DNA of 64,000 nt from Euzebyella saccharophila (lineage in GTDB: Bacteria > Bacteroidota > Bacteroidia > Flavobacteriales > Flavobacteriaceae). The notes under the pieces were generated by a model, which saw nothing but the letters and a program-made list of their open reading frames with translations, was not told the origin of the DNA and searched no databases. How positions within the stretch are numbered: position 1 is the first letter of the stretch; every line of letters begins with the position of its first letter. This document shows positions 12,328-47,280 of the stretch, in pieces. A program made the position numbers and the translations under genes. The stretch lies in assembly GCF_014855495.1 (NCBI RefSeq), contig NZ_JACYFJ010000001.1, positions 372,001 through 436,000 of the forward strand, written 5' to 3'.

Positions 12328-12424
12328 GTTCATCGAAGATTTCAAACTACTTGTACTATTCACAACAAATGGGAGGCACTTCACAACAATAATTTAGCCA
12401 GTACCAAAGTCTGGCGTAGATTTA
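12328..12424 (+). promoter_or_regulatory. Promoter and direct-repeat operator, small-RNA family copy 1
   Basis: In order: GTTCATCGAA at 12328-12337; TTCACAACAA at 12359-12368 and again at 12380-12389 (21 bp apart, both perfect); a degenerate -33 TTTAG at 12393-12397; and -7 element TAGATTTA at 12417-12424, 37 bp from the start of the second box. With a start near 12428 the boxes span about -69/-60 and -48/-39, where an activator would sit. The same spacing recurs at three other loci in the window. Confidence 0.7.
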
Positions 12425-12427
12425 CAT

Positions 12428-12574
12428 TGTAATTAAGTGATAGAGCAAATCCCAAATCGCCCTGTGAACTTAACCTAAATTAGAAAAGTTTCGAATCCCA
12501 AATCCGATATTTAAAGAACTTAACCTCGAACCTACTTATTAAAAAAATCACCCTCTCCCCAAGAGGGTTTTTTT
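12428..12574 (+). ncRNA. Candidate small RNA, family copy 1
   Basis: A predicted transcript of about 147 nt with no open frame of useful length. It holds a twice-repeated core: TCCCAAATC at 12450-12458 and 12496-12504, each followed by GAACTTAACCT at 12466-12476 and 12516-12526. The 3' end has CCTACTTA then A-rich bases, then a Rho-independent terminator: stem CCCTCT (12551-12556) with AGAGGG (12562-12567) and T7 to 12574. The first third is nearly identical to copy 3 at 36.6 kb. It fills much of the 550-bp gap after hflX. Function unknown; the RNA is inferred from promoter, conservation and terminator. Confidence 0.65.
12551..12574 (+). terminator. Terminator of small-RNA copy 1
   Basis: Hairpin CCCTCT-loop-AGAGGG followed by seven T. 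It also bounds any read-through from hflX. Confidence 0.8.
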
Positions 12575-12624
12575 ATGCCAAAATGCGAAGCCAACTAGCT
12601 TGAAAAAAAGAGCATATTGCATCC

Positions 12625-12721
12625 GTTCATCGAAAAAATTGACGTTTTAACGTATTTCACAACAACAAATGACCTCTTCACAACAAAATTTTCAGCTTCT
12701 ACCAGTGTAAACTTAAATTCG
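12625..12721 (+). promoter_or_regulatory. Promoter and direct-repeat operator, small-RNA family copy 2
   Basis: GTTCATCGAA at 12625-12634; perfect TTCACAACAA boxes at 12656-12665 and 12677-12686 (21 bp apart); -7 element TAAATTCG at 12714-12721, again 37 bp from the second box. The GTTCATCGAA-to-box distance is 31 bp, the same as in copy 1. The locus lies about 50 bp downstream of copy 1's terminator, in tandem. Confidence 0.68.
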
Positions 12722-12724
12722 AAA

Positions 12725-12854
12725 TGTATTTGAAATTTAGTGTTAGTCCCAAAGACAAAAGAACTTGACCTAGGTTTGATTTTTATTGACTGTACCAAAT
12801 TACCGACCCTACTTAACAAAAAAATGCCCCAACGATTGTTGGGGCATTTCTTTT
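12725..12854 (+). ncRNA. Candidate small RNA, family copy 2
   Basis: A predicted transcript of about 130 nt, the most divergent in the body: one core only (TCCCAAA then GAACTTGACCT), then CCCTACTTAACAAAAAAA and a strong terminator. No open reading frame. It converges on the DUF3078 gene and shares its terminator with it. Confidence 0.58.
12822..12854. terminator. Bidirectional terminator: small-RNA copy 2 and suf operon end
   Basis: A perfect 12-bp stem, AAATGCCCCAAC (12822-12833) and its complement (12838-12849), loop GATT, with A-run on the left and T-rich sequence on the right. It can end both the plus-strand RNA and the minus-strand DUF3078 gene. Confidence 0.85.
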
Positions 12855-12873
12855 ATTTACTTATTTCTTATTC

Positions 12874-13806
12874 TTAGAAAGAGTAGTTCAAACCTAGCAA
12901 GTAGTAACTTTGTAGATCGTTATCAATGTTATCAAAAGTCGGTGTGGGTCTAATTGCAGGCTCAACAGCTAAAGCGTTTGCCAAAGTCTCTTGCTTATTA
13001 CCTCTCAATCCAAATTCAAAACCTACACCAATATTCTTCCATAGGGTATAACCGAAGGAGTTGATCCACGTCCAGTTAGATAAGTCACCATCTTTATAAC
13101 TCTGGAAAGTAGAGAAATTGGTCTTAAAACTTACTGCACCTAATTGTTTGGTATAATCAACCACAATCTTGGCACCCGCAGATGATTCGTAAGCCGTGTC
13201 ATTGTCAGCAAATACAAAGTTGTAGTTTAATGGATGGATAACTACTACCATATCCTTAATTGGTGTCCAGGTGGCACCTACTCCAAGGTCTAAATAACCA
13301 GGGTCATTAAAGTTGTTAATGATTGAAGTACGGTACTCACCCAAAGCTGAAATAGCAAATTTAGAGTTCAATTTATACCCGTACAGCGATGTAATCGTGA
13401 AAACATCGGTAGTACCGGTAAACCCTTCCTCATCGGTAGGATCGTCCTTGTCATCAATTTTCACCCATTGAAGGTTGACAATGCCAGAGTTTCTCCAAAA
13501 GAACTTCTCTCTGTCCAAATTGGCAAAACCATTAACGGTAACGCCAATATTACCTGATGAGTTGTTGGGTACACCCTGGGAATACCAGTTGTTGAACTTG
13601 GAAAGATTGGCACCTATGGTACCGAACGCTCCGGTCTTCCATCCGGGAAAGGCATCAATTTTACCTTGAAGGGCATCGACTCTACCCTGAATAGCTTTGA
13701 TGGAGTCTTTCTTAACCGCTTGCTCAGCTTTTAACTCCTCGATTGTTTGCGCAAATCCCGCTGAAAATGCGAGCATGGCAATACAAGAAATTACTAATTT
13801 CTTCAT
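12874..13806 (-). CDS. DUF3078 outer-membrane beta-barrel protein
   Basis: A 310-residue exported protein. A signal peptide of about 19 residues ends SAGFAQ, then a short helical stretch (IEELKAEQAVKKDSIKAIQGR), then alternating aromatic/polar strands typical of an outer-membrane barrel, ending in a terminal aromatic (LGLNYSF). It matches the DUF3078 family seen in flavobacteria. Last gene of the minus-strand suf cluster, 79 bp after the DUF2480 gene. Function unknown. Confidence 0.8.
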   Translation of the reverse strand: MKKLVISCIAMLAFSAGFAQTIEELKAEQAVKKDSIKAIQGRVDALQGKIDAFPGWKTGAFGTIGANLSKFNNWYSQGVPNNSSGNIGVTVNGFANLDREKFFWRNSGIVNLQWVKIDDKDDPTDEEGFTGTTDVFTITSLYGYKLNSKFAISALGEYRTSIINNFNDPGYLDLGVGATWTPIKDMVVVIHPLNYNFVFADNDTAYESSAGAKIVVDYTKQLGAVSFKTNFSTFQSYKDGDLSNWTWINSFGYTLWKNIGVGFEFGLRGNKQETLANALAVEPAIRPTPTFDNIDNDLQSYYLLGLNYSF

Positions 13807-13885
13807 AATGTTAATGTTAGTGAATAAGTGTTTATTAACTGCAAAGTTAACGACGTCAACATTTAATAAACAAGTTTATCAACGA

Positions 13886-14401
13886 TTATTTTCTTTTAAA
13901 GAGGGGAACGGAAGAGCAGGCCTCACCGTACATGAGCGATTTTACGATAGGTTGTAACTGTTGGGTTATCAACAAATAAGCACTTAAAGGCACCGGTTTA
14001 TTACTACACCCTTTTACAATAACCATTTTATCCTGAAATTCGGAAATATCCAAATTTTCTAAAACCGATTGGTATAAAGATGTCTCTAAAACTTCTAAGC
14101 TACCTTGAATCACTTTTTTGGCAAAGGCGGATAATTTCACCGTCAATAACATATATGCCCAGCCGGGTACAATGGCATCTGTTTTGCAGGTTAAGGCAAC
14201 GTAGGTGCCTGTATATTGCGACCAATCATGCCCCTCAACAGCTTCCCTGAATTCCTTTTCCCTTAAAATTAGGCCTTCATACAGCCACTCTGAAATATCA
14301 AAAAGAATTCTTTTACCCGTAGGATAATAATCTTCCAAGTTAAAAGTAACTAACTTGCTTTGTGCAACCCGGTTAATAATTACATCTTCTTCCTTAGACA
14401 T
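13886..14401 (-). CDS. DUF2480 family protein
   Basis: A 171-residue soluble protein resembling DUF2480, a family largely restricted to Bacteroidota and repeatedly found beside Fe-S assembly genes. Features: basic N-terminal region, DISEWLYEGLILREKEFREAVEGHD, a conserved CKTDAIVPGWAYML, and a late VKGCSNKPVPLSAYL. Two cysteines (in the CK and GCS motifs) could bind a metal or cluster, but that is speculation. It starts 10 bp after the DUF59 gene, so is almost surely in the same transcript. Confidence 0.8.
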   Translation of the reverse strand: MSKEEDVIINRVAQSKLVTFNLEDYYPTGKRILFDISEWLYEGLILREKEFREAVEGHDWSQYTGTYVALTCKTDAIVPGWAYMLLTVKLSAFAKKVIQGSLEVLETSLYQSVLENLDISEFQDKMVIVKGCSNKPVPLSAYLLITQQLQPIVKSLMYGEACSSVPLFKRK

Positions 14402-14411
14402 AGTAGGGCAA

Positions 14412-14744
14412 TTAAAGTAAACCTAGCTCTAACTTGGCTTCCTCGCTCATTAATTCTTGGGTCCAAGGGGGATCGAACGTAATTTCCACTTCAGCATCCT
14501 TTACCAAGTCCAAAGACTTCACTTTTTCCTCCACTTCCGCTGGCAAAGACTCGGCCACGGGGCAATTGGGTGATGTAAGTGTCATTAGAATACAAACCTC
14601 ATTATCTTCATTAACGAGCACGTCGTAAATTAATCCTAGTTCATAAATATCTACCGGTATTTCTGGGTCATAGATAGTCTTAAGGACCTTTACTATTTTT
14701 TCGCCCAATTCACCGGTTTCAACTGTTTCAATATCGTCGTTCAT
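14412..14744 (-). CDS. DUF59/MIP18-family Fe-S assembly protein (SufT-like)
   Basis: A 110-residue MIP18 (DUF59) domain protein. Seen: YDPEIPVDIYELGLIYDV and the cysteine motif TLTSPNCPVAESLP, the hallmark of this family, then DPPWTQELMSEEAKLELGL at the C-terminus. Family members (SufT, Cia2-type) help mature Fe-S proteins or load clusters. It lies 35 bp after sufE and 10 bp before DUF2480 in the suf cluster, which supports the role. Confidence 0.9.
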   Translation of the reverse strand: MNDDIETVETGELGEKIVKVLKTIYDPEIPVDIYELGLIYDVLVNEDNEVCILMTLTSPNCPVAESLPAEVEEKVKSLDLVKDAEVEITFDPPWTQELMSEEAKLELGLL

Positions 14745-14779
14745 GTAGTTCTTTTTTAATTTAGAAACCCGAGTTTCTT

Positions 14780-15202
14780 TTAGTTAAGTTGCGTCTGGTA
14801 CGCTATGGCATATAACTTCAGCTGCTTGATCATGCTTACCAAACCATTCGCTCGTGTTGGAGAAAGATGTTCCTTAAGTCCAATTTCATCGATAAAAGCA
14901 GTATCCGCATCAATAATATCCTGCGGTTTTTGATTGCTGAAAGCTCTGATTAAAATAGCAATAATACCTTTTGTTATAATGGCATCGCTATCTGCGGTAA
15001 ATACCAATTTTTCATTATCCAACTCCGCATGTACCCACACTTTGCTTTGGCATCCCTTAATAATGTTATCCTCTGTTTTGTACTGCTCATCTATTAACGG
15101 AAGGGACTTGCCTAGCTCAATCATGTATTCATAACGCTGCATCCAATCATCGAACATGGAAAACTCGTCTACTATCTCCTCCTGTATTTCCTTAATAGCC
15201 AT
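14780..15202 (-). CDS. sufE: SufE sulfur-acceptor protein
   Basis: A 140-residue SufE. It accepts persulfide sulfur from SufS and passes it to the SufBCD scaffold. The acceptor is Cys51 in IIKGCQSKVWV, in the expected surface loop. It follows sufS by 75 bp in the same orientation, as in many suf operons. Confidence 0.95.
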   Translation of the reverse strand: MAIKEIQEEIVDEFSMFDDWMQRYEYMIELGKSLPLIDEQYKTEDNIIKGCQSKVWVHAELDNEKLVFTADSDAIITKGIIAILIRAFSNQKPQDIIDADTAFIDEIGLKEHLSPTRANGLVSMIKQLKLYAIAYQTQLN

Positions 15203-15277
15203 ACTTCTTTATTTTCAGCAAAAATACAATAAGAATCCCTGCTTATCAATTCTTTAAGCCAAAGTTGGGAAGCCTTG

Positions 15278-16492
15278 TTACAGCAACATATTTCGCGCAC
15301 GTTTCACCCCTTCCACCAGTACATCTACCTCTTCTTTGGTATTATAAAAGCAGAAACTAGCTCTAACCGTACCGGGAATTTTATAGAAATCCATAATAGG
15401 CTGGGCACAGTGGTGACCCGTACGAACGGCAATACCCAATTTATCCAAAATGGTACCGATATCATACGGATGTACTCCTTCAATATTAAATGAGATTACC
15501 GAAGTCTTTTCTTGGGCCGTACCATATATTCTAAGGCCTTCAATACTTAACAATTGCTCGGTTGCGTACTTAAGTAATTCATGCTCGTAGGCTGCAATTT
15601 TTTGGAAACCAATGGAATTCATATAATCCAAAGCAGCTCCAAAGGCAATTCCGCCGCAAATATTGGGCGTACCTGCCTCAAACTTATGTGGTAGGTCTGC
15701 GTATGTAGTTTTTTCAAAAGTTACCTCAGCTATCATCTCCCCGCCACCTTGATAGGGAGGCAACTTGTTCAACCATTCCTCTTTTCCATAGAGCACGCCA
15801 ACACCTGTGGGTCCACACATTTTATGGGCGGAAACGGTGTAAAAATCGACATCAAGCGCTTGCACGTCCGCTTGAATATGCGGTGCGGCCTGTGCCCCAT
15901 CAATTAATACTGCTGCACCCACATTATGAGCGCTATCAATTATTTCCTTAATAGGGTTTATGGTGCCCAATGCATTGGAAATATGGTTACAAAAAACCAA
16001 TTTGGTTTTAGCACCTAGCAAGTCGTGAAAAACATCCATTATAAGCTCTCCCTCCTCATTCATGGGAATCACCTTAAGAACGGCACCGGTACGTTCGGCT
16101 AACATCTGCCATGGAACGATATTACTATGATGTTCCATAGCCGAGACCAATATCTCGTCGTCCTTTTGTAAGAGGGAAGAAAAACCGTTCGCTACCAAAT
16201 TAATACCATGGGTAGTACCCGAAGTAAAAATGATTTCATGGCTTTTTTCGGCATTAAAATGCTTTTGTATTTTCTGTCTTGCCTGTTCGTATTTATCGGT
16301 AGCTTCTTGTGATAGAAAATGTACCCCCCGATGAATGTTGGCATTGTAATTTTGGTAATAATCCACGATAACATCAATGACCTGTTGAGGGGTTTGAGAG
16401 GTAGCGGCATTATCTAAGTAAACCAAGGGTTTACTGTTCACTTCACGATTTAATATGGGGAAATCCTTACGGATTTTTTGCACATCTAGCAT
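15278..16492 (-). CDS. sufS: Cysteine desulfurase SufS
   Basis: A 404-residue PLP-dependent class V aminotransferase-fold enzyme converting L-cysteine to L-alanine and enzyme-bound persulfide for Fe-S assembly. PLP lysine K224 lies in TVSAHKMCGPTG; catalytic cysteine C362 in RTGHHCAQPIMD, matching group II (SufS/CsdA) desulfurases. Its partner sufE follows directly. Unusually, it is separated from sufD by two outer-membrane genes. It lies 105 bp downstream of the nearer of these; no clear promoter was seen in that gap. Confidence 0.97.
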   Translation of the reverse strand: MLDVQKIRKDFPILNREVNSKPLVYLDNAATSQTPQQVIDVIVDYYQNYNANIHRGVHFLSQEATDKYEQARQKIQKHFNAEKSHEIIFTSGTTHGINLVANGFSSLLQKDDEILVSAMEHHSNIVPWQMLAERTGAVLKVIPMNEEGELIMDVFHDLLGAKTKLVFCNHISNALGTINPIKEIIDSAHNVGAAVLIDGAQAAPHIQADVQALDVDFYTVSAHKMCGPTGVGVLYGKEEWLNKLPPYQGGGEMIAEVTFEKTTYADLPHKFEAGTPNICGGIAFGAALDYMNSIGFQKIAAYEHELLKYATEQLLSIEGLRIYGTAQEKTSVISFNIEGVHPYDIGTILDKLGIAVRTGHHCAQPIMDFYKIPGTVRASFCFYNTKEEVDVLVEGVKRARNMLL

Positions 16493-16597
16493 AGTGTTCT
16501 GATTGAACTACAAAGATACCTATATGAACGATAAACAAAATGAATGATTCAGGGATTTTATAAAGGCTCATAACAATTAAATTTTATATTTACCCTA

Positions 16598-17236
16598 TTA
16601 AAAAATTACATATCCCGCGGATAATTGCAACGATCTATGATAGTTTTTATATGATGAAGAGAATCGACCATCAATAAGATTGTTAAGGCCGTAATAATAA
16701 TCTAATTGTAAAAATATTCGACTAATTACCTTACAACCTAAACTTAGTAGGCCTCCATATTCAAATTTGAAATCTCCGGAGGAAGTAATTTTTTTTGCAC
16801 CTGGATTAAAGGTTTCTTCAAACTTCCCCACTCTATTTAATAAAAATGATACTTGAGGCCCTATACCAAATGACAAACTACTCAATTGATGTGAAAAACT
16901 TAAAGGTATGGAAAGGTAGTTATACCTATCAACATACTCTACCTTTTCTTCGAATTCATGAGGGGACATAATGTTGAAATCGGTAACATCATATTTATTA
17001 AGATTACCAACAGAATTGTATAACAAACCGGTATTGAAGTAAAATCTATCTGACAAACCAATCTTAGCAAAACCACCAAGCTGGTAACCTATTCTAGTAC
17101 TGTGAATCTCAGAAAAATCTCCGGAAACATTGGAAGCATTTAAGCCTCCCTGTAAACCGAAAAGAGAATTCTGAGCCTGAGTAATATTTATAAAGAGAAT
17201 AAATATAAATACTGAACAAAATATTCTCATGATCAT
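16598..17236 (-). CDS. Outer-membrane beta-barrel protein (porin family)
   Basis: A 212-residue protein with a signal peptide ending ITQAQNS and repeated amphipathic strands (LFGLQGGLNASNVSG, IGYQLGGFAKIGLSDRFYFNTGLLY, LQLSAGYVIF), typical of PorT/OMP_b-brl_2 barrels. It ends in an aromatic residue, as outer-membrane proteins do. Start may be M1 or M3. Lies between sufD and sufS with the next gene, also a barrel. The gap to its left neighbour gene (17237-17344) shows no clear terminator. Confidence 0.7.
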   Translation of the reverse strand: MIMRIFCSVFIFILFINITQAQNSLFGLQGGLNASNVSGDFSEIHSTRIGYQLGGFAKIGLSDRFYFNTGLLYNSVGNLNKYDVTDFNIMSPHEFEEKVEYVDRYNYLSIPLSFSHQLSSLSFGIGPQVSFLLNRVGKFEETFNPGAKKITSSGDFKFEYGGLLSLGCKVISRIFLQLDYYYGLNNLIDGRFSSSYKNYHRSLQLSAGYVIF

Positions 17237-17344
17237 AATAGGAAATTTTATTTATTGAAACAACTACAACGATTTCACGAATTACATATTGCGATTTCGC
17301 CTATAATTTTTATACAAAAAACATCACAGTATCCTTTGCCATAG

Positions 17345-17941
17345 TTAAAACCGAAAACCAACCCCAGCCTTAAAAACATTCATGGTATTCCACTTTGTTT
17401 CGTACCGATAACTGTTTGGGCCATCAGCGTTGATCAACCACCTTTGACGATGATTTAAATAGTCGTACTGTATTTTTACAAAAAATCTATTGGTAAGGTC
17501 GTAAGACAGTCCTAAATTGGCATTAAAGGCTCCCCAGCTATCGGTTTCATTATAACCAACTTCTGCCTGCTTGTGGTCAATATCGTCATAAAGATAAGAG
17601 TAGCCAACCCCCGCGCTGGGTTTTAACTTTGCCAAACCGGGAATACTAAATTCCGCAAAAACGGTTGGCTGAACAAGTATCCGTTTCCATTTATAGTCAA
17701 GTTCTATATTGGAATCGTAAATATAGTTTTCACGATCACTAAATAGAGCGGTGCCAAGACCAGCACCCAATTGCACAATACCTAAATCTACAAAGCGATA
17801 TTTAACCCCAACGTCAAGAACACCGTTCAACTGATCTTCATCTGTAATAGGATAATTTGCCTCAATGCTCCATTTCTTATCTTGGGCGAAAAGGCTAAAC
17901 GTAACTAAGAACAAGGCGCAAAAAAGTAGTTTTGAATTCAT
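17345..17941 (-). CDS. Outer-membrane beta-barrel protein
   Basis: A 198-residue exported barrel: signal peptide ends TFSLFAQ, then strands such as WSIEANYPITDEDQLNGVLDVGVKYRF, a middle VQPTVFAEFSIPGLAKLKPSAGVGYSY and a terminal VFKAGVGFRF. Its function is not recognisable. It starts 128 bp after sufD ends. With the previous barrel it breaks the usual sufD-sufS adjacency. Confidence 0.7.
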   Translation of the reverse strand: MNSKLLFCALFLVTFSLFAQDKKWSIEANYPITDEDQLNGVLDVGVKYRFVDLGIVQLGAGLGTALFSDRENYIYDSNIELDYKWKRILVQPTVFAEFSIPGLAKLKPSAGVGYSYLYDDIDHKQAEVGYNETDSWGAFNANLGLSYDLTNRFFVKIQYDYLNHRQRWLINADGPNSYRYETKWNTMNVFKAGVGFRF

Positions 17942-18069
17942 CTAAAATGTTTTAAGGTTGAAATTGTTTTCGACCAAATTAGACGAATTACCGTGTAGGA
18001 AAACACAACAACTTGTTAATAGTTCGTCAAGAACTTGCTAAATTTTTAAGGACTATCTTAAAGGCTTTT

Positions 18070-19386
18070 TTACAGGTCAAAACCCAAACTAACCCCTAAC
18101 TTTTTGGCAATCAACTTGTTGATTCTCGCTTTTACTTCGGGTATACGCACACTTTCCAACACGTTATTGGCAAAGGCATACATTAACAAAGCTCGAGCTT
18201 CTTTTTGAGGTATTCCCCTGGACTGAAGATAGAATAGTGCATCCTCATCCAATTGACCAATGGTACAACCATGGGAACATTTTACATCGTCCGCAAAAAT
18301 CTCCAACTGAGGCTTTGTATTGATTGTTGCTTTATCACTTACCAAAATGTTGTTGTTCTGCTGAAAGGCATTGGTTTTTTGGGCAATCTTATCCACTATA
18401 ATCTTACCATTGAAAACTCCGGTTGCATTCTCTCCGTAGATTCCCTTGTAATCTTGGTGGCTTTCACAGTTAGGTTCAATGTGATGAACTAGGGTGTGGT
18501 GATCTACATGCTGTTTGTTACCAAGAATAGTAACTCCCTTCATGGTAGATTCTATATGCTCCCCATTCTGATAGAAGTTTAGGTTGTTCCTAATCAATTT
18601 ACCTCCAAAAGAGAACGTATGTACGCTTACATTACTTTTTCCTTTTTGGTCAATATAGGTGTTATCTATCAAAGAAGCATTCTCAGAATCGTTCTGAATT
18701 TTATAATAATCGACAATAGCACTATCCGCAGCAAAAATTTCCGTTACGCTATTTGTCAGTACTTCATTGGAAGTAAGGCTTTGATGACGCTCAATTACCT
18801 GCAGCTCTGAATTTTCTTCGGCAATAATCAGATTTCTAGGTTGCAACATCAAAGATGCCTCATTTCCGGTAGCAAAATGAATGATTTCTACCGGTTTTTT
18901 AGGCATTTTATTTTTGGGTATATAAATATAGGCACCTTCCCTACTAAACGCGGTGTTCAAGGTAGTAAGCGACTCATCTTTGGATGCCACTTTGTTAAAA
19001 TATACGTCAACCACCGGTTTGTACATGGGCTTGGTAAGAGCGGAGCTCATCAAACAAATATCAACGCCATCATGTGTGGTTTCAGACAGATAGGAACTGT
19101 AAATACCGTCTATAAATACAATTTTATAGGTATCTACCTCATGTAAAAAGTACTTTTTTACCTGCTTGTATTCCAAGGCGTTCTCTTCCTTTGGAAAGAT
19201 GCTAAAATCGACTTTTTGAAGGTTCTTAAGGCTGGTATACTTCCAAGCTTCCTCCTTTTTGGAAGGAAACCCCTTCATTTCAAAATTCTTCATCGCCTCT
19301 GTACGAACATCGTGCACCGGGTGCTCGATATCCACATTACTCTCAAAAGCCATGAAAGACGATATCAACTTATCCTTTAAATCCAT
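18070..19386 (-). CDS. sufD: Fe-S cluster assembly protein SufD
   Basis: A 438-residue SufD subunit of the SufBCD scaffold complex, needed for iron entry and cluster assembly. Shares the SufB/D beta-helix core: HVDHHTLVHHIEPNCESHQDYKG and VSDKATINTKPQLEIFADDVKCSHGCTIGQLDEDALFYLQSRGI are family signatures. Located 54 bp after sufC. Confidence 0.96.
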   Translation of the reverse strand: MDLKDKLISSFMAFESNVDIEHPVHDVRTEAMKNFEMKGFPSKKEEAWKYTSLKNLQKVDFSIFPKEENALEYKQVKKYFLHEVDTYKIVFIDGIYSSYLSETTHDGVDICLMSSALTKPMYKPVVDVYFNKVASKDESLTTLNTAFSREGAYIYIPKNKMPKKPVEIIHFATGNEASLMLQPRNLIIAEENSELQVIERHQSLTSNEVLTNSVTEIFAADSAIVDYYKIQNDSENASLIDNTYIDQKGKSNVSVHTFSFGGKLIRNNLNFYQNGEHIESTMKGVTILGNKQHVDHHTLVHHIEPNCESHQDYKGIYGENATGVFNGKIIVDKIAQKTNAFQQNNNILVSDKATINTKPQLEIFADDVKCSHGCTIGQLDEDALFYLQSRGIPQKEARALLMYAFANNVLESVRIPEVKARINKLIAKKLGVSLGFDL

Positions 19387-19440
19387 ACTGTTCTTTTTGC
19401 AATAAACGATTGACGTATTCGTAATATTTCCTCAATGGGA

Positions 19441-20193: not shown

Positions 20194-20248
20194 ATCTTTA
20201 TCTTAACTTCTTCATGCGGACTTCTTGATTACCGCACCCATTTAATTT

Positions 20249-21694: not shown

Positions 21695-21703
21695 AGTGTT
21701 GTT

Positions 21704-22033: not shown

Positions 22034-22061
22034 TGCATGTTTCTTTTAACTAAATAGTCCA

Positions 22062-22069
22062 CAAATATA
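22062..22069 (-). promoter_or_regulatory. suf operon -7 promoter element
   Basis: On the minus strand this reads TATATTTG, an exact TAnnTTTG match. Transcription would start near 22058, leaving a leader of about 25 nt before the A-type carrier gene. No -33 TTTG is clear, which would fit a regulated promoter. Confidence 0.5.
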
Positions 22070-36434: not shown

Positions 36435-36602
36435 AAAAAAAGCCCTTTTGCAAGGGCCATTTTTTGTTAAGTAGGTACAAGGTTAATTTGGTTCCGATTT
36501 GGGTCGGATAATCTTTTGTAGGTTCTAGTTTTAAGTTTGGGTTTAAAACTAATTAGGTTAAGTTCAAAGTGCGATTTGGGATTGCTCTATCACTTAATTA
36601 CA
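36435..36602 (-). ncRNA. Candidate small RNA, family copy 3
   Basis: Predicted minus-strand transcript of about 168 nt. The first third is almost identical to copy 1 over more than 25 bases (CATTGTAATTAAGTGATAGA and on). It carries TCCCAAATC (complement at 36573-36581) followed by GAACTTAACCT (36555-36565), and a degenerate second core with CCCAAATC (36496-36503). Then TACCTACTTAACAAAAAA and the terminator. No useful open frame. It occupies the 367-bp gap 36421-36787 with pfpI's own terminator. Confidence 0.65.
36442..36457. terminator. Bidirectional terminator: small-RNA copy 3 and BNR gene
   Basis: Stem GCCCTT (36442-36447) with AAGGGC (36452-36457), A-run on the left and T-run on the right, so it can end both the minus-strand RNA and the plus-strand BNR gene. 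Confidence 0.75.
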
Positions 36603-36605
36603 ATG

Positions 36606-36701
36606 TAAAACTAAGGCATCCATTTGAGCTACCTAAATTTATGTTGTGAAGTATGCCATCTCTGTGGTGAAAAAGGGGTATGATTTTTTTCTTCGATGAA
36701 C
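36606..36701 (-). promoter_or_regulatory. Promoter and direct-repeat operator, small-RNA family copy 3
   Basis: Read on the minus strand: GTTCATCGAA (36692-36701), TTCACCACAG (36662-36671, the most degenerate box), TTCACAACAT (36641-36650), 21 bp apart, degenerate -33 TTTAG, then -7 TAGTTTTA (36606-36613) 37 bp from the second box. Same order and spacing as copies 1 and 2 (30 rather than 31 bp from GTTCATCGAA to the first box). Confidence 0.68.
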
Positions 36702-36742
36702 GGTATCTTTTTTTATCAAAGTTGAAAGTATGAAACAAAAAA

Positions 36743-36765: not shown

Positions 36766-36787
36766 ATTAAGATTTGGAATGTTTCAA

Positions 36788-37333: not shown

Positions 37334-37427
37334 TTGTATATTGTTTTATATGATTAATAATTAATTACATTACAAATATACCCCGCTAAGGCCGCCCGGA
37401 TCAACGGTAAACAAGAGGATATTTGCT

Positions 37428-37898: not shown

Positions 37899-37913
37899 GC
37901 TTTAAAATAAAAA

Positions 37914-37946
37914 AATCCCGCATTCCTTTCATTGGAATACGGGATT
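37914..37946 (-). terminator. Terminator of the sdhCAB operon
   Basis: Imperfect 13-bp stem AATCCCGCATTCC (37914-37926) with GGAATACGGGATT (37934-37946), one mismatch, preceded by a run of A on the plus strand (T in the minus transcript). It lies 56 bp after sdhB and just before vsr. Confidence 0.8.
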
Positions 37947-38001
37947 GATTTTATCCTGTTAACTAAAGAAATTGATTCATGAGAATCAACCCTTGGGTTT
38001 G

Positions 38002-38757: not shown

Positions 38758-38767
38758 ATCCTTAATT

Positions 38768-40783: not shown

Positions 40784-40787
40784 ATAT

Positions 40788-41456
40788 TTAATGTGTTATT
40801 GGGTTAAGATGATGGTATAAAGCGATAAATATGAATCCCAAAGGAATAACAATCGCATATACTTTTGTAAAAGTTTGTATGGCCGATTTGTATTTATTGT
40901 TCACACCCATACTTTGAAATGAGGAAGCAAATCCATGCCAAAGGTGCAATGCCAATAGGACAAAGGAAATTACATAGATAACCGTACGCCAAAAAGGTTC
41001 AAACTTTTCAACCGTTTCCTCATAATACCTTGTAGGGTCTTCTGGGTTACCCGCAATGTATTTATAGCTCATTTCATGTACCCAAAAATCATAAAAATGA
41101 AGACCCAGGAACGCCAACACTACAAGACCTGTAATGATCATGTTTCTTGACATCCAAGAGGCATTGGCACTTCCGTTGTACTTGTTGTATTTGATGGCCC
41201 TTGCATTGTTGTTTTTAATTTCCAAGGCAATTCCCATAACAAAATGAACTATCACCCCTGCAATTAATATGGGCTGAAGTACAAATTGCACCAATCCGTT
41301 GTAGCCCATAAAATGGGACCACTCGTTAAAGGTATCGGGCGCAATGACCGATGTAATGTTTATGGTAAAGTGTTGGGCCAGAAAAAAGACCAAAAAAAGA
41401 CCCGATAAGGCCATAACGACTTTTCGGGCTATCGAAGATTTTATCAATCCGCTCAT
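40788..41456 (-). CDS. sdhC: Succinate dehydrogenase cytochrome b subunit
   Basis: A 222-residue membrane anchor with about five helices, binding heme b and reacting with menaquinone. Conserved histidines lie in [53 protein letters not shown] and IALYHHLNP. First gene of the operon; a strong promoter lies 32 bp upstream. Confidence 0.93.
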
Positions 41457-41487
41457 TATTAAGTTTCAATTAGTTTTAGACCGTCTA

Positions 41488-41519
41488 CAAAAATAGTTCA
41501 TAGACGCCGCTTTAACAAA
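41488..41519 (-). promoter_or_regulatory. sdhCAB promoter
   Basis: On the minus strand: -33 TTTG (41516-41519), 20 bp, then -7 TATTTTTG (41488-41495), an exact TAnnTTTG match. Predicted start near 41484, giving a leader of about 28 nt. The 319-bp gap 41457-41775 also holds CCGC/GCGG arms (41507-41531) around the -33 element that could be an operator, and a weak rimK -7 (TATTTTTA, near 41739). No gene or RNA seen in it. Confidence 0.65.
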
Positions 41520-41775
41520 CTTTGAACGCGGTATCCAAGGTTATTTAGACCCATTATAATCAAGACGTTTTAGCTGTTTAATCTCTCTATAAAAAACACC
41601 GCTTTTTGAGGTAAAAAATTAAACAATAACACATCTAACCAAATAAAATTATAGCCTCCTAAAACCTCTCAATTATCTTAATTTCATCTATTTAAGACCT
41701 ATTTTACCATTCTACGAATAACAATCCGTAACAAATTGTATTTTTAGAACGTTCAAAATCAACTAGCACATAAGC

Positions 41776-42669
41776 ATGGATATTGCCCTGCTCTCCGTGA
41801 GCAATAACGTTTATTCAACGCAAAGAATAGCCCAAGAAGCTCAAAACCTAGGCCATTATATTGAACAGGTTGACCATACCCAATGCTCAGTAAAACTTGG
41901 TGGCGAATCTCCCGCAATTTATTTAAGGGAAGAAAATATCACCAACGAATTTGATGCTATCATTCCTAGAATTGGCGCTAAAGTAACCAAGCACGGAGTA
42001 GCCATTGTTAAACAATTTGAAATTAATGGTACGTTTAGTTCCGCACGATCACTGAGCATTGCAAGGGCGAGAAATAAGATAAGGTCCCTGCAGCTTATGT
42101 CACAAAAGGGTATTCCCATTCCTGAAACCTTATTTTCCATTGACCCTGATACTATTGAGGAACAAATAAAAATACTTGGTGGCGCACCTGTTATCATAAA
42201 AATCCAAGAAGGGACCCACGGTTTGGGCGTTATTCTTGCCGAATCCCAAAAGTCTGCAAAATCCATTATTGATACGTTCTATAAAATGGATACCAGCATT
42301 TTACTCCAGAAATATATAGCGGAAAGCAATGGTGAGGACATTCGCATTTTTGTGGTGGGCGATAAAGTGGTAGCAAGTATGAAGCGCATAAGTTCCCAAG
42401 ATGAATTTAGAAGCAATGTGCACAGGGGCGGTAAAACAGAAAAAATAAAACTCACCAAAAAAGAAGAGGAAATTGCCATTAACGCGGCCAAACATATAGG
42501 GCTGGGAGTTGCAGGAGTTGACCTTATAAGATCCAATAAAGGCCCTTTATTGATAGAAGTCAACGCCTCCCCAGGACTACGAGGTATTGAGGCTGCCACA
42601 GGAATAAATGTAGCAAGGGAAATTGTTCTTTACGTAGAAAAAAATTGCAAAAAGAAACGATGGAGATAA
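41776..42669 (+). CDS. rimK: RimK-family ATP-grasp glutamate ligase
   Basis: A 297-residue ATP-grasp enzyme; family members add glutamate to ribosomal protein S6 C-termini or make related gamma- or alpha-linked peptides. Signatures: TFSSARSLSIARARNKIRSLQ, PVIIKIQEGTHGLGVILAES, EDIRIFVVGDKVVASMKRIS, GVAGVDLIRSNKGPLLIEVNASPGLRGIEAATG. Its stop lies 10 bases inside the next gene. Confidence 0.92.
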   Translation: MDIALLSVSNNVYSTQRIAQEAQNLGHYIEQVDHTQCSVKLGGESPAIYLREENITNEFDAIIPRIGAKVTKHGVAIVKQFEINGTFSSARSLSIARARNKIRSLQLMSQKGIPIPETLFSIDPDTIEEQIKILGGAPVIIKIQEGTHGLGVILAESQKSAKSIIDTFYKMDTSILLQKYIAESNGEDIRIFVVGDKVVASMKRISSQDEFRSNVHRGGKTEKIKLTKKEEEIAINAAKHIGLGVAGVDLIRSNKGPLLIEVNASPGLRGIEAATGINVAREIVLYVEKNCKKKRWR

Positions 42670-43649
42670 ACCACAATAAGGAGATTACCATTGGGGGCAC
42701 TACCGTAAAGCCAGGTCAAAATAAGCTTGTAAACATAAGTATTGACCGACTGCCAACCGGAACACTAATCGATATACCGGTATATGTGTTCAATGCAAAA
42801 AAACCCGGTCCCGTTGTCTTGGTTCAGGCGGGATTACATGGAGATGAGGTAAACGGTGTAGAAGTGGTAAGAAGAATGCTGGCCGAAAAGCAATTGCAGG
42901 TCTCAAAAGGAGCTGTTATTGCAGTGCCCATTCTTAATATTTTTGGTTTTATACATTTTTCTAGGGACGTACCAGATGGGAAGGATGTGAATAGAAGTTT
43001 TCCGGGGACTAAATCAGGTTCTATGGCCAGTAGAATAGCTTTTCATTATACCCGTGAAATACTTCCGCATATAGATTTTGGCATTGACCTACATACTGGT
43101 GGAGGACAAAGACATAACTTTCCTCAAATAAGATTTACCCAAGAAGACAAAAATAGTAGGGAGCTAGCTAAGTTATTCAATGCCCCGTTATGTTTTCCTT
43201 CCAGTCTAATTAAAGGCTCCTTTAGAAAAACGGCATTTAACCTTAACAAACCGATCATCGTGTACGAAGCAGGTGAAAGTATGCGATTTGATGATTTTTC
43301 CATTTCAGAAGGAATCCAAGGAGTTTTAAATATCCTTAAACATTTTGGAATGACGGAAACGGAAATTAAAATAAAACCACCGAGCTCACTTTATTTAGAG
43401 GATCGAAAATGGCTACGTGCTCCCACTGCCGGAATGTTTGTACCTAAAGTTAAAAATGGCGGCCCTATAAAAAGTGGTGAATTAATGGGATTGGTTTCGG
43501 ACACTTTTGCCAAACGAACCAAAAAGATAAAAGCTCCTTATGATGGAGTGGTTATTTGTATAAATCATCAGGCCGTAGTGAACCAAGGCGATGCTCTTTT
43601 TCATATTGGAAAGAAAATGCAACAGACTGATCAGTATGTTCTTAACTGA
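42660..43649 (+). CDS. AstE/aspartoacylase-family zinc hydrolase
   Basis: A 329-residue M14-type zinc carboxypeptidase-fold protein. Zinc ligands in QAGLHGDEVNGVEVVRRML (H and E) and GIDLHTGGGQRHN, and a YEAGESMRFDD catalytic region; a C-terminal beta-barrel domain follows. Family includes N-succinylglutamate desuccinylase and aspartoacylase. Start chosen at ATG 42660 overlapping rimK; an upstream TTG is less likely. Co-occurrence with rimK suggests a linked amidation/deamidation pathway. Confidence 0.85.
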   Translation: MEINHNKEITIGGTTVKPGQNKLVNISIDRLPTGTLIDIPVYVFNAKKPGPVVLVQAGLHGDEVNGVEVVRRMLAEKQLQVSKGAVIAVPILNIFGFIHFSRDVPDGKDVNRSFPGTKSGSMASRIAFHYTREILPHIDFGIDLHTGGGQRHNFPQIRFTQEDKNSRELAKLFNAPLCFPSSLIKGSFRKTAFNLNKPIIVYEAGESMRFDDFSISEGIQGVLNILKHFGMTETEIKIKPPSSLYLEDRKWLRAPTAGMFVPKVKNGGPIKSGELMGLVSDTFAKRTKKIKAPYDGVVICINHQAVVNQGDALFHIGKKMQQTDQYVLN

Positions 43650-43748
43650 GGAACTCAGCAATTTTTCATCGTTTGTGCCGTTTACCGATTTTAAGTCTAG
43701 CTTAGTCCCGTTTTACAGGACTTTGCATCCACTTTAAGAACTGCCTAC

Positions 43749-43766
43749 ACCGACTCGTTAGTCGGT
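43749..43766 (+). terminator. Possible terminator after the AstE-like gene
   Basis: Hairpin ACCGACT/AGTCGGT with loop CGTT, followed by only three T. Between convergent genes; the T-run is weak. Confidence 0.4.
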
Positions 43767-43795
43767 TTGAATGATTGTAGCTCACTTAGATATTT

Positions 43796-44185
43796 TCAAC
43801 CCTCCATATCTTCCAACTGAATGGAAAGGGCCTTCGTTGATAGCTGTACTTCGATAAATGATAATACTAAACTGACCATTAAAGCCAACAGACTGATACC
43901 AAAAACCAGATTGGCCCAAAATCGCTGTTCGATATAAATTAACGACATGGTGATAACCGCCAATAAAAAACTAAAGATAGCGGTGGCCTGCATGTTTTTG
44001 ATGATGGTCAGCCGTTTTCGGAGTTTTCTAACTTGTAATGCTATGGTGCCCGATTCTGTTTCTTGGTATTTTTGGTGCAATTGCCTGATCAAGGCCGCAA
44101 TGGCCAAATACCTCGCATTGTAGGCCAACATAGTCAAGGAGATGGCCGGGAATAAAAGTGCCGGAATGCTAAGGGTCAATTCCAT
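43796..44185 (-). CDS. DUF2721 membrane protein
   Basis: A 129-residue protein of the DUF2721 family. Helix 1 (residues 1-25, IPALLFPAISLTMLAYNARYLAI) and two C-terminal helices (AIFSFLLAVITMSLIYI, NLVFGISLLALMVSLVLSF) with a central charged coiled helix containing REIR-like RKLRKRL. Function unknown. It abuts ThuA: its ATG ends at 44185 and the ThuA stop begins at 44186. Confidence 0.8.
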   Translation of the reverse strand: MELTLSIPALLFPAISLTMLAYNARYLAIAALIRQLHQKYQETESGTIALQVRKLRKRLTIIKNMQATAIFSFLLAVITMSLIYIEQRFWANLVFGISLLALMVSLVLSFIEVQLSTKALSIQLEDMEG

Positions 44186-45160
44186 CTACTCTAGGAATTT
44201 TACAGAACTTGACTTTTCTGCCGTTGGAAAGTTATCCGGAATTTCTTGGGTCACCTTTCCTGTGGCGGCCCATTCGCTGCCCCGTAACATACTCACCATA
44301 AAACCAACGCTCTCAACAGAATAATCGGCATGGCCCATGATATTGTGGAAAATTCGGCCTTTGCCATAATTCAATACCATTAAAGCTGGTTCGTGCCTAG
44401 CCGTACCTTTATACTCTTCCGAAGAATAAGCGGTTGCCAAAACTTCCATATTTTCGGCAGGGCCTCTTAAACAATCATAGAGTTCATCTTTGGCATGCAA
44501 CCATTTTTTGGGCATACCTTTTGTAATGGGGTGGTCAAAATTGCGAACCTGAATCTGGTATTCATGTTGTGGACCATGGGAACCGGCATGACCGGGAGAA
44601 TTATCCCTTATCAATTTTCCTTCATCGTTGTAATATACGTACGGACCGTCTTTTTCGTTTCTGTCTCCCCATCCACCTAGTCCAATCATTTGGTTGTAGG
44701 CTTCCCATTCAGGAAAGGAGTTATCAGCGGCATGAAAAACGACAAGTCCGCCCCCTTTTTTGATAAACTTTTCAAACTCTTTTTTGGTTTCCTCTGGCCA
44801 TGGTGCGGCATTCCATCCAAAATTACAGACAATCAAATCGTATTTTGAGAATTTTGGTGCGTAAGCAGGATCCGCCTTGGGTTTCTCAAAAGCTTCAGTT
44901 CCTTCCGTTCCTGCAATACTATAATCTTCTAAAAATTGTTCTCCCTGCCAGGTGTAGGCAGAACGGGCGACATCCACAGAAAACAACCCTGTTTTCTCCA
45001 TTTCCGCCTTTAACATATATGTAATCTTAGGCCAATGTTCGTGATTGTTTTGCCCATCTACAATAAGCGTTTTAATTGATTTTTCTGAGGATTGGGAAAT
45101 ACCGAGGCTACAAATCATAGTGGCCAAAACTGTGAGAATAATACGTGGTTGAGTCTTCAT
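44186..45160 (-). CDS. Secreted ThuA-domain protein
   Basis: A 324-residue exported protein: signal peptide ends LGISQS, then a ThuA (trehalose-utilisation, glutamine-amidotransferase-like) domain. Seen: IVDGQNNHEHWPKI, IVCNFGWNAAPWPEETKKEFEKFIKKGGGLVVFHAADNSFPEW, HEPALMVLNYGKGRIFHNIMGHADYS. ThuA-like proteins occur in sugar catabolism clusters; the reaction is uncertain. It is immediately upstream of DUF2721 with no gap. Confidence 0.85.
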   Translation of the reverse strand: MKTQPRIILTVLATMICSLGISQSSEKSIKTLIVDGQNNHEHWPKITYMLKAEMEKTGLFSVDVARSAYTWQGEQFLEDYSIAGTEGTEAFEKPKADPAYAPKFSKYDLIVCNFGWNAAPWPEETKKEFEKFIKKGGGLVVFHAADNSFPEWEAYNQMIGLGGWGDRNEKDGPYVYYNDEGKLIRDNSPGHAGSHGPQHEYQIQVRNFDHPITKGMPKKWLHAKDELYDCLRGPAENMEVLATAYSSEEYKGTARHEPALMVLNYGKGRIFHNIMGHADYSVESVGFMVSMLRGSEWAATGKVTQEIPDNFPTAEKSSSVKFLE

Positions 45161-45265
45161 ATTTCATTTTTGCCCTATAAATATAATAGATTACCTAGAA
45201 GAATTTATAGTAAGAGGGAACAATCTAGGTGATTCGTTGTAAATTCACTTTCTCTTTGCCGAATT

Positions 45266-46426
45266 ATGAACGTGAGAATTAAACCACCAAAAAGCAAACT
45301 TCCGGAAGTAAAGACAACCATTTTTTCTACTATTGGAGTATTGGCCCGAAAGTATAATGCGACCGACCTATCACAAGGTTTTCCGAATTTTGAAATAGAT
45401 CCTGAACTTATTAGGCTAGTTAATGAATCGATGCACTTTGGATACAATCAATATGCGCCCATGCAGGGTCATTTGGGTTTACGGGAAGCCATATCGGAAA
45501 AAATTGAAAAGCTACATAAAACCCGCTACCATGTGGATGATGAAATTACCATCACCGTAGGTGCTACCCAAGCTATTTACACCTCCATTGCTGCCTTTGT
45601 ACACCCCGGAGACGAAGTGATTATTCTTAAACCTTCTTACGATAGTTACGAACCTTCCATTTTGGCCAATGGAGGTACTCCTGTTCCTGTTCAAATGAGC
45701 AAAGGCGATTACCAAGTGGATTGGACTGAACTTAAGGAAAAAATTTCAGGGAAGACTAGAATGATGATTATCAACACGCCCCACAACCCAAGTGGCAGAG
45801 TCTTCAGTAAAGAGGAAATGCTTCAACTGCAAGAAATTTTGAGACCCACCAACATTATACTTATTAGTGACGAGGTATACGAACATATTGTTTTTAACAA
45901 TTATGAGCATCAAAGTGCGTCCAGATTTGAAGATTTGGCCCAACGCAGTTTTGTTTGTGCCTCCTTTGGCAAAACCTTTCATGTTACAGGGTGGAAAGTT
46001 GGTTACTGTGTGGCCCCAAAGGACTTAATGGCGGAGTTCAGAAAAGTGCATCAATTTGCAGTTTATTCCATACATCACCCCATTCAAAATGCTTTGGCAA
46101 CCTATCTAAAACAAGAAACGAACTATTTAAATCTACGAAAATTCTATCAGGATAAAAGGGATTTGTTCTTAAGTGCTTTGGCCGGTTCCAAATTTAAGTT
46201 CACACCAACCCAAGGAACTTATTTTCAGTTATTGGATTATACAAATATTACTTCTGAAGACGATGACCTTTTAGCGGAACGGCTTATAAAAGAACATCAA
46301 TTGGCCAGTATACCCATTTCATCGTTTAATATAGACCGCCGGCAAGATGGCGTTCTACGATTCTGTTTTGCCAAAAAGAAAGAGACCTTGTTAAAAGCAG
46401 CGGAGATTCTATGTAGTCTAAAGTGA
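45266..46426 (+). CDS. PLP-dependent aminotransferase (methionine/kynurenine type)
   Basis: A 386-residue class I/II aminotransferase like YbdL/kynurenine-oxoglutarate transaminases; methionine to 4-methylthio-2-oxobutyrate is a plausible reaction. Motifs: LSQGFPNF near the N-terminus, TVGATQAIYTSI, NTPHNPSGRVFS, the PLP lysine in CASFGKTFHVTGWKVGYC, and RLRFCFAKK-type end. It has no clear operon partner; GNAT converges 2 bp downstream. Confidence 0.9.
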   Translation: MNVRIKPPKSKLPEVKTTIFSTIGVLARKYNATDLSQGFPNFEIDPELIRLVNESMHFGYNQYAPMQGHLGLREAISEKIEKLHKTRYHVDDEITITVGATQAIYTSIAAFVHPGDEVIILKPSYDSYEPSILANGGTPVPVQMSKGDYQVDWTELKEKISGKTRMMIINTPHNPSGRVFSKEEMLQLQEILRPTNIILISDEVYEHIVFNNYEHQSASRFEDLAQRSFVCASFGKTFHVTGWKVGYCVAPKDLMAEFRKVHQFAVYSIHHPIQNALATYLKQETNYLNLRKFYQDKRDLFLSALAGSKFKFTPTQGTYFQLLDYTNITSEDDDLLAERLIKEHQLASIPISSFNIDRRQDGVLRFCFAKKKETLLKAAEILCSLK

Positions 46427-46427
46427 T

Positions 46428-46961
46428 TTAAACTGCAAGGTCGTACCTCATCAACCAATCAGTTTGCTTATCATCTCCCACTATATATGGATGAGTGCCA
46501 AATTTATAGAAGCCGTTTTTCTCATAGAACTTGATGGCACTGTGATTTTCTTCCCAGACCCCTAACCAAATAAAATTTTTATCTCTGTTCTTGGCAATGG
46601 TCTTCACTTCTTCTATCAGGTGCGCTCCAATTCCCTTTCCTTGATAATTTTGCAGCACATATATTCTCTCCAACTCCAAGGCCTCATCAATTTTCAAATC
46701 TGATTGTGCCCCAAATTCATTGACTTTAATATAACCTGCAAGTGCATCTCCATCCCATAAAAAGTAGAAAGAAGCGTGTTTTTGATTCAGTTCCTTTTTT
46801 AACCGATCTGCCGAAAAAGCTTCGGACATATACTTTTCAAAATCGACAGGGTCATTCTGCTTTTCAAAAGCAGCACGAAAGGTCTCACTTGAAATTTTCA
46901 CCAAGTTATCCAAATCACTTGATTGACATTTTATTAGACGGTACCGATGCTGTTCATCCAT
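46428..46961 (-). CDS. GNAT-family N-acetyltransferase
   Basis: A 177-residue GNAT acyltransferase. The acetyl-CoA loop is YQGKGIGAHLIEEVKTIA, followed by GVWEENHSAIKFYEKNGFYKFGTHPY. The start is ATG 46961 (MDEQHRYRLIK); an in-frame upstream start would add a hydrophobic stretch lying under the small-RNA terminator. Substrate unknown. Converges on the aminotransferase gene. Confidence 0.85.
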   Translation of the reverse strand: MDEQHRYRLIKCQSSDLDNLVKISSETFRAAFEKQNDPVDFEKYMSEAFSADRLKKELNQKHASFYFLWDGDALAGYIKVNEFGAQSDLKIDEALELERIYVLQNYQGKGIGAHLIEEVKTIAKNRDKNFIWLGVWEENHSAIKFYEKNGFYKFGTHPYIVGDDKQTDWLMRYDLAV

Positions 46962-46984
46962 GGTCCAATTTAAATAAAAGGCAT

Positions 46985-47017
46985 AAAAAAAGAGCAACCT
47001 TTGGGGAAATTGCTCTT
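46985..47017 (-). terminator. Terminator of small-RNA copy 4
   Basis: Stem AAGAGCAA (46990-46997) and TTGCTCTT (47010-47017) with a T-run on the minus strand at 46985-46990. It lies 24 bp upstream of the GNAT start and so also separates the two transcripts. Confidence 0.75.
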
Positions 47018-47040
47018 ACATTTTATTCTTTCAAAAAGTA

Positions 47041-47142
47041 TTATAGCATAAATAACTTTTTGGTCAATAACACAATACCGCTTAGAAATTCATAGCGATA
47101 TACTTGGATGTCTTCTTTAGTTTGGTTCATTTGGGCTTCCAT
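47041..47142 (-). CDS. Possible 33-residue peptide inside small-RNA copy 4
   Basis: ATG at 47140-47142 to TAA at 47041-47043. The peptide has a charged N-terminus (MEAQMNQTKEDIQVYRYE) and a hydrophobic C-terminal half (FLSGIVLLTKKLFML). It sits about 70 nt inside the predicted transcript. A frame this short can occur by chance, and the other copies have no equivalent, so I mark it as a hypothesis. Confidence 0.3.
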   Translation of the reverse strand: MEAQMNQTKEDIQVYRYEFLSGIVLLTKKLFML

Positions 47143-47214
47143 AGGCTGTAGGTTTAGTTCAATTTTACAATTGGATTTGGGTTTATAAAGTAGTTCTTGC
47201 AATTAATTATATCC

Positions 47215-47280
47215 TAAAACTACAATAGAATTCAACAGTAGTAAAATACTTGTTGTGAACAGCCTAAAATTTGTTGTGAA
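47215..47280 (-). promoter_or_regulatory. Promoter and direct-repeat operator, small-RNA family copy 4
   Basis: On the minus strand: TTCACAACAA at 47271-47280 and 47250-47259 (both perfect, 21 bp apart), then -7 TAGTTTTA at 47215-47222, exactly 37 bp from the second box. The upstream GTTCATCGAA element of copies 1-3 is not found at the expected distance. Confidence 0.68.

Follow-up and report, generated by a model that had tools for sequence, protein, structure and literature searches.

Small RNAs (sRNAs) that act as sponges of other sRNAs have been worked out mainly in Proteobacteria and in a few Firmicutes. The present work concerns a 64,000-nucleotide stretch of the Euzebyella saccharophila genome (contig NZ_JACYFJ010000001.1, positions 372,001 to 436,000; here the window), four loci of which (copies 1 to 4) carry the same direct-repeat operator, and the circuit in which the RNAs of these loci probably take part together with a LytTR response regulator and a tandem array of short predicted sRNAs, here termed T.

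Parts of the text of each paper cited served for the comparison with described systems. In Caulobacter crescentus, the signal-induced CrfA sponge pairs with four sibling sRNAs, SisA-D (PMC12559287); a signal-induced sponge directed against a family of four siblings would be common to both cases, whereas several predicted two-module sponge genes, a tandem arrangement of the siblings, a host among the Bacteroidota and a proposed LytTR two-component regulator set the present case apart. RosA of Bacillus subtilis, which sponges RoxS and FsrA (PMC8216469), resembles the predicted sponges in being a stand-alone sRNA with its own transcriptional control, but its partner sRNAs differ and it is subject to carbon catabolite control rather than to a LytTR regulator. 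Like T, the FopS/GibS family of Bacteroides thetaiotaomicron with its partner RbpB (PMC11697453) is multicopy, from Bacteroidota, equipped with a 5' seed and ended by a terminator; there, however, the partner is a protein, and the word "sponge" is absent from the part of the text at hand. FopS has reportedly been deposited in Rfam (PMC11697453), whereas Rfam gave no curated-score match in the window or in four loci that contain T or the regulator. Rfp18 of Flavobacterium psychrophilum (PMC9723704) shares with T that it is a conserved flavobacterial sRNA, but it is strongly structured and pairs through its third stem-loop, a distinction that is based on its description, not on its sequence.

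Sponges of sibling sRNAs (PMC12559287, PMC8216469) and multicopy sRNAs of Bacteroides (PMC11697453) are, by these partial texts, already known. A literature search found, among the papers it covered, no description of a LytTR system combined with sponges and a tandem sibling array, and no paper matching tandem or multicopy sRNAs in flavobacteria, the operator sequence or the T core. If the proposal set out below is true, it would provide a tractable post-transcriptional circuit for algae-associated marine bacteria, some of which (Zobellia and Maribacter, for instance) can be grown in culture, and the near-invariant 31-nt core of T, coupled with a copy number that follows the regulator, would make sponge/target co-evolution directly testable.

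Operator and promoter geometry

We consider it likely that a LytTR regulator activates copies 1 to 4, that copies 1 and 3, together with a further copy at 787 kb of contig C8, specify sponges of T, and that T represses mRNAs, possibly including that of copy 4, through its leader. The operator on which this proposal is built consists of two 9-bp boxes in direct repeat around a 12-bp spacer (9+12+9 bp; 21-bp period). A first-pass annotation of the window had reported such box pairs at four loci, and this was borne out: three exact TTCACAACA-N12-TTCACAACA pairs are present in the window, where none is expected (100 shuffles), while copy 3 deviates by one base in its first box (TTCACCACA), the second box being exact. 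The -7 element likewise starts 37 bp from the start of box 2 at all four copies, as described there, with a weak match in copy 2.

12359-12388 (+), operator of copy 1, both boxes exact TTCACAACA, 21 bp apart (pattern search)
12417-12424 (+), -7 element of copy 1, TAGATTTA
12656-12685 (+), operator of copy 2, exact pair (pattern search)
12714-12721 (+), -7 element of copy 2, TAAATTCG, weak
36642-36671 (-), operator of copy 3, TTCACCACA-N12-TTCACAACA (pattern search)
36606-36613 (-), -7 element of copy 3, TAGTTTTA
47251-47280 (-), operator of copy 4, exact pair (pattern search)
47215-47222 (-), -7 element of copy 4, TAGTTTTA

The pattern search in the own genome and in relatives, which the first-pass annotation had put forward, returned 6 exact pairs in the own genome and exact pairs in 10/60 genomes (own included), versus 0/60 for the reversed control pattern; the named carriers include Maribacter, Zobellia, Arenibacter, Allomuricauda and Eudoraea. 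The scan of the 60 genomes and that of the genome collection together yielded at least 194 exact sites, 55 of them in tandem arrays, and the matches listed comprise 139 non-tandem exact sites, 109 from Bacteroidota and 30 from elsewhere. The 109 sites, many of which are mutual homologues, were kept for the class analysis, and the 55 tandem-array and 30 non-Bacteroidota sites were dropped; records L128 to L165 were first divided by the look of their sequences, a division which later agreed with the record titles, and a few of the 109 are titled just Bacteroidetes or Bacteroidia. Among the 139 non-tandem sites listed, TAnnTTTR is located at offset 37 in 64, all within the 109 Bacteroidota sites and none among the 30 others, at offset 58 (37+21) in 4 and at any other offset in at most 3; a second promoter geometry, moved by one 21-bp period, exists. 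Read from sequence, an operator of the activator type, common to several small transcripts and adjoining a Bacteroidetes-type promoter, is supported.

The T array and its predicted pairing with operator-driven RNAs

The features specified by the four copies, and the array with which some of them are predicted to pair, are as follows.

12428-12578 (+), predicted sponge RNA of copy 1, with terminator
12451-12477 (+), T-complement module 1 of copy 1 (CCCAAATC ... TGAACTTAACCTA)
12497-12539 (+), T-complement module 2 of copy 1 (CCCAAATC ... GAACTTAACCT ... AACCTACTTAT)
12725-12855 (+), predicted sRNA of copy 2, divergent class
36440-36602 (-), predicted sponge RNA of copy 3, with terminator
36554-36580 (-), T-complement module 1 of copy 3
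36468-36503 (-), T-complement module 2 of copy 3
46980-47211 (-), predicted small-protein mRNA of copy 4, with terminator
47041-47142 (-), conserved 33-codon open reading frame (ORF) of copy 4, MEAQMNQTKEDIQVYRYEFLSGIVLLTKKLFML
47174-47181 (-), CCCAAATC within the leader of copy 4
C8:648010-648669, T array, four copies of ~73-nt predicted sRNAs, between a purF-like gene and superoxide dismutase

With predicted starts near 12428, 12725, 36602 and 47211, all four copies end in a terminator-like hairpin with a T run (read from the sequence, the folds being computed), as the first reading of the window had held. Judged by their sequences, the copies are not members of a single sRNA family: one class comprises copies 1 and 3, copy 2 is divergent and copy 4 is a predicted small-protein mRNA; in several relatives, genes for homologues of its 33-aa protein likewise follow this operator. 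The conserved ORF at 47142-47041(-) contradicts the earlier statement that none of the loci lies inside a protein gene, and the small-RNA regulon under one activator that was envisaged there holds as regards the common activator-type operator and the several small transcripts, but not as regards a single sRNA family, and it takes in protein genes too.

Copies 1 and 3 and the C8:787 kb copy (class A) contain CCCAAATC-like, GAACTTAACC and ACCTAC motifs followed by a terminator; no conserved ORF was seen in these three, the 52-codon frame at C8:787 running past the terminator. CCCAAATC occurs behind 40/109 operators, with 1.5 expected. A search for the class-A motifs in 424 kb of the own genome led to the intergenic array at C8:648 kb, where CCATAGCATAAGTAGGTTAAGTTCATGGTAAGATTTGGGG occurs four times, in the last case with two changes, and a terminator follows every copy; CCATAGCATAAGTAGGTTAAGTTCATGGTAAGATTTGGGG represents the class-A motifs reverse-complemented, in one piece. 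The 31-nt core of T (<=3 mismatches) was detected in 13/60 genomes, a control matching none, and is identical in most of the matches listed. At the fetched loci, TAnnTTTR is positioned at -22/-23 in 27 of the 42 distinct T copies, and a T run follows all 42; in the computed fold, the 5' hairpin is weak (-4.1 kcal/mol, z -0.10) and the terminator strong.

The predicted duplexes of T with the class-A RNAs are far stronger than those with shuffled targets, amounting to -35.6 kcal/mol for copy 1 (shuffled -18.8, sd 2.9), -36.5 for copy 3 (-20.3, sd 2.9) and -40.1 for the C8:787 copy (-21.7, sd 2.8), and only -25.0 for copy 2 (-19.7, sd 2.9). Copies 1 and 3 thus show more complementarity to the sRNA seed than chance would give, as would be expected of a sponge, and copy 2 does not, having ranked 12 of 100 shuffled T (L030 at 1798), with no significant pairing. 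When 424 kb of the 4.46-Mb genome were scanned on both strands in 150-nt windows (11,244 in all; mean -18.3, sd 3.3), those over copies 3 and 1 were outranked only by the antisense strand of T. Between genera, the class-A bodies diverge yet keep their pairing with T, and the body of copy 1 (12428-12535) shows no structure beyond that of shuffles (z -0.68). The leader of the copy-4 33-aa gene, in which AACCTAC precedes the start codon, gave -27.1 kcal/mol (shuffled -18.2, sd 2.6; best of 200 shuffles -27.2) and rank 1 of 100 shuffled T, and on this complementarity it may be a T target.

Across the 109 operator sites, 53 attained rank <=1 of 100 shuffled T: 22/27 of class A, 5/7 DUF6747 leaders, 6/10 small-protein leaders, 6/18 kinase leaders, 0/8 VSIDYHRR gene leaders and 14/39 "other" sites, the class labels being those of a simple script and inspection by eye assigning 12 of the latter 14 to the class-A type and 2 to small-protein leaders. 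One of the kinase-leader RNAs (L086) carries a single 16-nt perfect T complement.

The array-end T copy (e.g., G000:C8:648639, G000 being the own genome) often shows the same two changes (AAGTTTATGG ... GGGA) across genera and may represent a distinct sibling. At G000:C12:367254 (L278), a short terminator-ended stretch without a TTCACAACA pair is complementary by eye to much of the 5' part of T, and it is possibly a further anti-T RNA.

The probable regulator and the adjoining kinase

The window was said to hold no regulator gene, and this remains so, the likely gene having been traced to contig C14. A recurrent ~653-aa protein downstream of the operator proved to be a TPR-HisKA_2-HATPase kinase, and the gene before it encodes a REC-LytTR response regulator.

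G000:C14 about 291458-292210 (L235:6458-7210), REC-LytTR regulator (REC 1.6e-20, LytTR 7.2e-18)
L235:7711-9789 (C14), TPR-HisKA_2-HATPase kinase, adjoining the regulator

Between the two genes on C14 lie two operators, one exact and one with 2 mismatches, and the regulator-kinase gene order is kept in relatives. The regulator (E<=1e-45) was identified in 9/60 genomes, all 9 of which have the operator, while the operator occurs in 1/51 regulator-negative genomes, at one site (Fisher 6.8e-10, kinship ignored). At 6 of the 30 non-tandem sites listed outside Bacteroidota, all 6 in Clostridia (L062, L089, L095 and L126, Lachnospiraceae metagenome-assembled genomes [MAGs]; L145, Eubacterium sp.; L132, Roseburia faecis), the operator is followed by a REC-LytTR gene, and in a further Clostridia MAG (L136) it precedes AgrB, with a REC-LytTR gene upstream. 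In a flavobacterial MAG (L097), a REC-LytTR gene follows immediately behind the operator.

LytTR sites are described as direct repeats of 9 bp, usually 12 bp apart, that lie immediately ahead of the promoter and whose letters vary and are poorly conserved while length, spacing and position are kept (PMC6193735, in the part at hand). The present operator has this layout, with two ~9-bp direct repeats and a ~12-bp spacer near the promoter, and operators lie beside the REC-LytTR gene here and in relatives; autoregulation would be a further common trait; the half-sites in that source are of the ACCNCTTAT type, whereas those found here are TTCACAACA, and sponge RNAs are among the targets proposed here. 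The remark in the first-pass annotation that the box does not fit the usual LytTR consensus is therefore accurate, TTCACAACA (compared by eye) not being near the published half-sites. Because of the 9-bp boxes with a 12-bp spacer, the regulator/kinase synteny, the co-occurrence and the operators before REC-LytTR genes in Clostridia, the regulator of this operator is nonetheless most likely the LytTR response regulator encoded on C14, the binding being predicted.

The genes neighbouring the regulator on C14 encode UbiA and enolase-superfamily proteins, by which the neighbourhood is probably a menaquinone locus. In other records, the operator stands before a FlxA-like gene (L157, Clostridia) and before a gene with a FliD_C match (L105, "Bacterium D16-51"). 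From the genes that accompany it, the use of the TTCACAACA pair in Clostridia is perhaps an agr-like regulon.

Co-occurrence of T with the regulator

In a sample of 249 genomes of the family, the regulator was present in 53 and T in 90. T was found in 50/53 regulator-positive genomes, in 2 to 7 copies each, and in 40/196 regulator-negative genomes, 33 of which have a single copy; multicopy T accordingly occurs in 50/53 versus 7/196 genomes (Fisher 5e-41, kinship ignored). Because T occurs alone in other genomes, these counts suggest that T came first as a regulator and that the sponge layer was added later.

Proposed circuit and alternative explanations

From the operator, the promoter geometry, the synteny and co-occurrence of the regulator, the T array and the complementarity, the following course of events is predicted. 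A single LytTR response regulator, encoded on C14, would recognize the direct repeat; presumably in phosphorylated form, it would bind just upstream of the -33 region and activate transcription from several promoters, including those of copies 1 to 4. Copies 1 and 3 and the C8:787 kb copy would then give rise to two-module RNAs whose modules are complementary to the 5' portion of the T siblings, and pairing of these sponges with T would relieve the repression by T of its putative target mRNAs. Because the copy-4 33-aa mRNA has the same operator as well as T complementarity in its leader, activator and sponge would form a feed-forward loop. With somewhat less assurance, we favor a wider formulation, in which marine Flavobacteriaceae possess a circuit composed of a LytTR system, two-module sponges, the T array and T-repressed small-protein mRNAs, in which array and sponge have co-evolved and in which a second type of short RNA (class B, described below) pairs with both ends of certain DUF6747 mRNAs.

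Several results weigh against the proposal. The genome samples and operator sites were counted with kinship ignored, and three regulator matches (58%, 43% and 43% identity) lack T. Searches for T targets gave no clear excess at 360 translation starts (best -27.5, versus bests of -23.9 to -29.8 for shuffled seeds), and long contiguous T complements elsewhere in the genome did not exceed the control in one count (15 besides T versus 14) or in a second (45 in all versus 97). In the scan of 11,244 windows, the next unrelated ones reached -33.4 and -33.0, leaving a margin of 2 to 3 kcal/mol. The body of copy 3 (36474-36602) is somewhat structured (z -2.44), RNAs of the copy-2 type pair no better with T than shuffles do (rank 6 to 18 of 100), for which reason their being sponges is not supported, 12/18 kinase-leader RNAs do not pair with T, and the class-B RNA of C14 gave no signal against T (-14.4 kcal/mol).

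Since complementarity is symmetric, the roles could also be reversed, with copies 1 and 3 as working regulators whose C-rich seeds engage G-rich mRNA sites and with the T array as their antagonist; many trans-acting sRNAs pair by short C-rich motifs, and the class-A bodies, which are also present more than once, use such motifs for pairing. This arrangement appears unlikely given that T is the more widespread partner, being found, mostly as a single copy, in regulator-negative genomes, and that its core is identical in most matches listed, while class-A bodies differ between genera with the pairing kept. The repetition of short motifs and the excess of CCCAAATC behind operators agree with a quite improbable alternative as well, namely, that the CCCAAATC / ACTTAACC / CCTACTT repeats bind an RNA-binding protein and that the RNAs serve either as decoys in the manner of RsmY/CsrB or as ligands for an RRM protein such as RbpB. 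Once the T array is considered, such decoys fall behind: protein binding leaves unexplained that the three motifs, in their order and joined form, make up one contiguous T complement, and the L086 RNA has its one perfect complement instead of repeats.

We give about as little credence to a reading of the operator by another activator family (AraC or OmpR), the LytTR regulator just travelling in the same genomes. The box is indeed unlike published LytTR half-sites such as ACCACTTAT, but the letters of such repeats are known to vary with length, spacing and place kept (PMC6193735, as far as its available text goes); moreover, operators sit between the regulator and kinase genes, all nine regulator genomes contain the operator and Clostridia carry it before REC-LytTR genes. 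Least probable, by a little, is an ordinary regulon of unrelated sRNAs in which the T complementarity is a functionless remnant of a duplication from the opposite strand of T. Class A could derive from antisense T sequence, and the target scans are in keeping with this view, but pairing is kept across diverged bodies, copies 1 and 3 have two modules each, and T copy number tracks the presence of the regulator. The proposal of a LytTR-activated sponge of T is accordingly the one retained below.

Additional regulon members and elements

Beyond the scope of the first-pass annotation lie the T array outside the window, operator-bearing genes other than sRNA genes and a distal element upstream of the operator. 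In the own genome, the operator also precedes a gene whose 123-aa product matches no Pfam family (L021) and a gene resembling the leucine-rich-repeat gene of L087 (read from sequence), and it drives the predicted short RNA of class B at C14. A degenerate operator with 2 mismatches (G000:C14:340839, L011) stands before an ORF that by eye resembles an ECF sigma factor, and the copy-2-type RNA (window 12725-12855) recurs in relatives (L025, L031, L058 and L138).

G000:C14 about 292331-292445 (L010), class-B short RNA behind operator, seed TTTTCATTTTCATATAGTGTTCTC
G000:C16 about 146660-146766 (L013), class-B short RNA behind operator, seed TTTTCATTTTCATATAGTGTTCTC
L322, L326 (own genome), L327, L328 and L329, class-B double-end loci

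In MGT-type DUF6747 small-protein genes, the class-B seed has two predicted pairing regions, the 3' stretch and that around the start codon; in 5/27 DUF6747 loci, its rank against 100 mononucleotide shuffles is 0 at each end. As general targets of T, DUF6747 leaders were rejected, with only 3/27 loci having an operator pair in the 5' stretch (by eye); eight MGT-type leaders rank 1 to 16 of 100 against T. DUF6747-type small-protein genes with the operator were observed in relatives (L061, L067, L070, L072, L084, L088 and L090), 5/7 of their leaders having a T rank <=1 of 100, and in L067 and L070 CCCAAATC is directly upstream of the start codon. Counts of CCCAAATC or GATTTGGG near ATG (18 genomes) were both higher in regulator-positive genomes, and neither was used; the GATTTGGG excess perhaps stems from Asp-Leu-Gly codons.

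The distal element, in which CCGTTCATC starts 32 to 33 bp upstream of box 1, is present in copies 1 to 3, all three having been read from sequence.

12325-12334 (+), distal element of copy 1, ACCGTTCATC
12622-12631 (+), distal element of copy 2, TCCGTTCATC
36695-36704 (-), distal element of copy 3, ACCGTTCATC

In the form [GT]TT[CT][AG]TC, the CCGTTCATC / CGTTCGTC element starts 30 to 32 bp before box 1 in 18/27 class-A sites, and we take it to resemble an AlgR-type LytTR site. A second regulator, common to sponge and T, is possible by way of this element. The same word is also found near the T core, at -60 in 8 and at -80 to -82 in 15 of the 42 T copies (L236 to L269).

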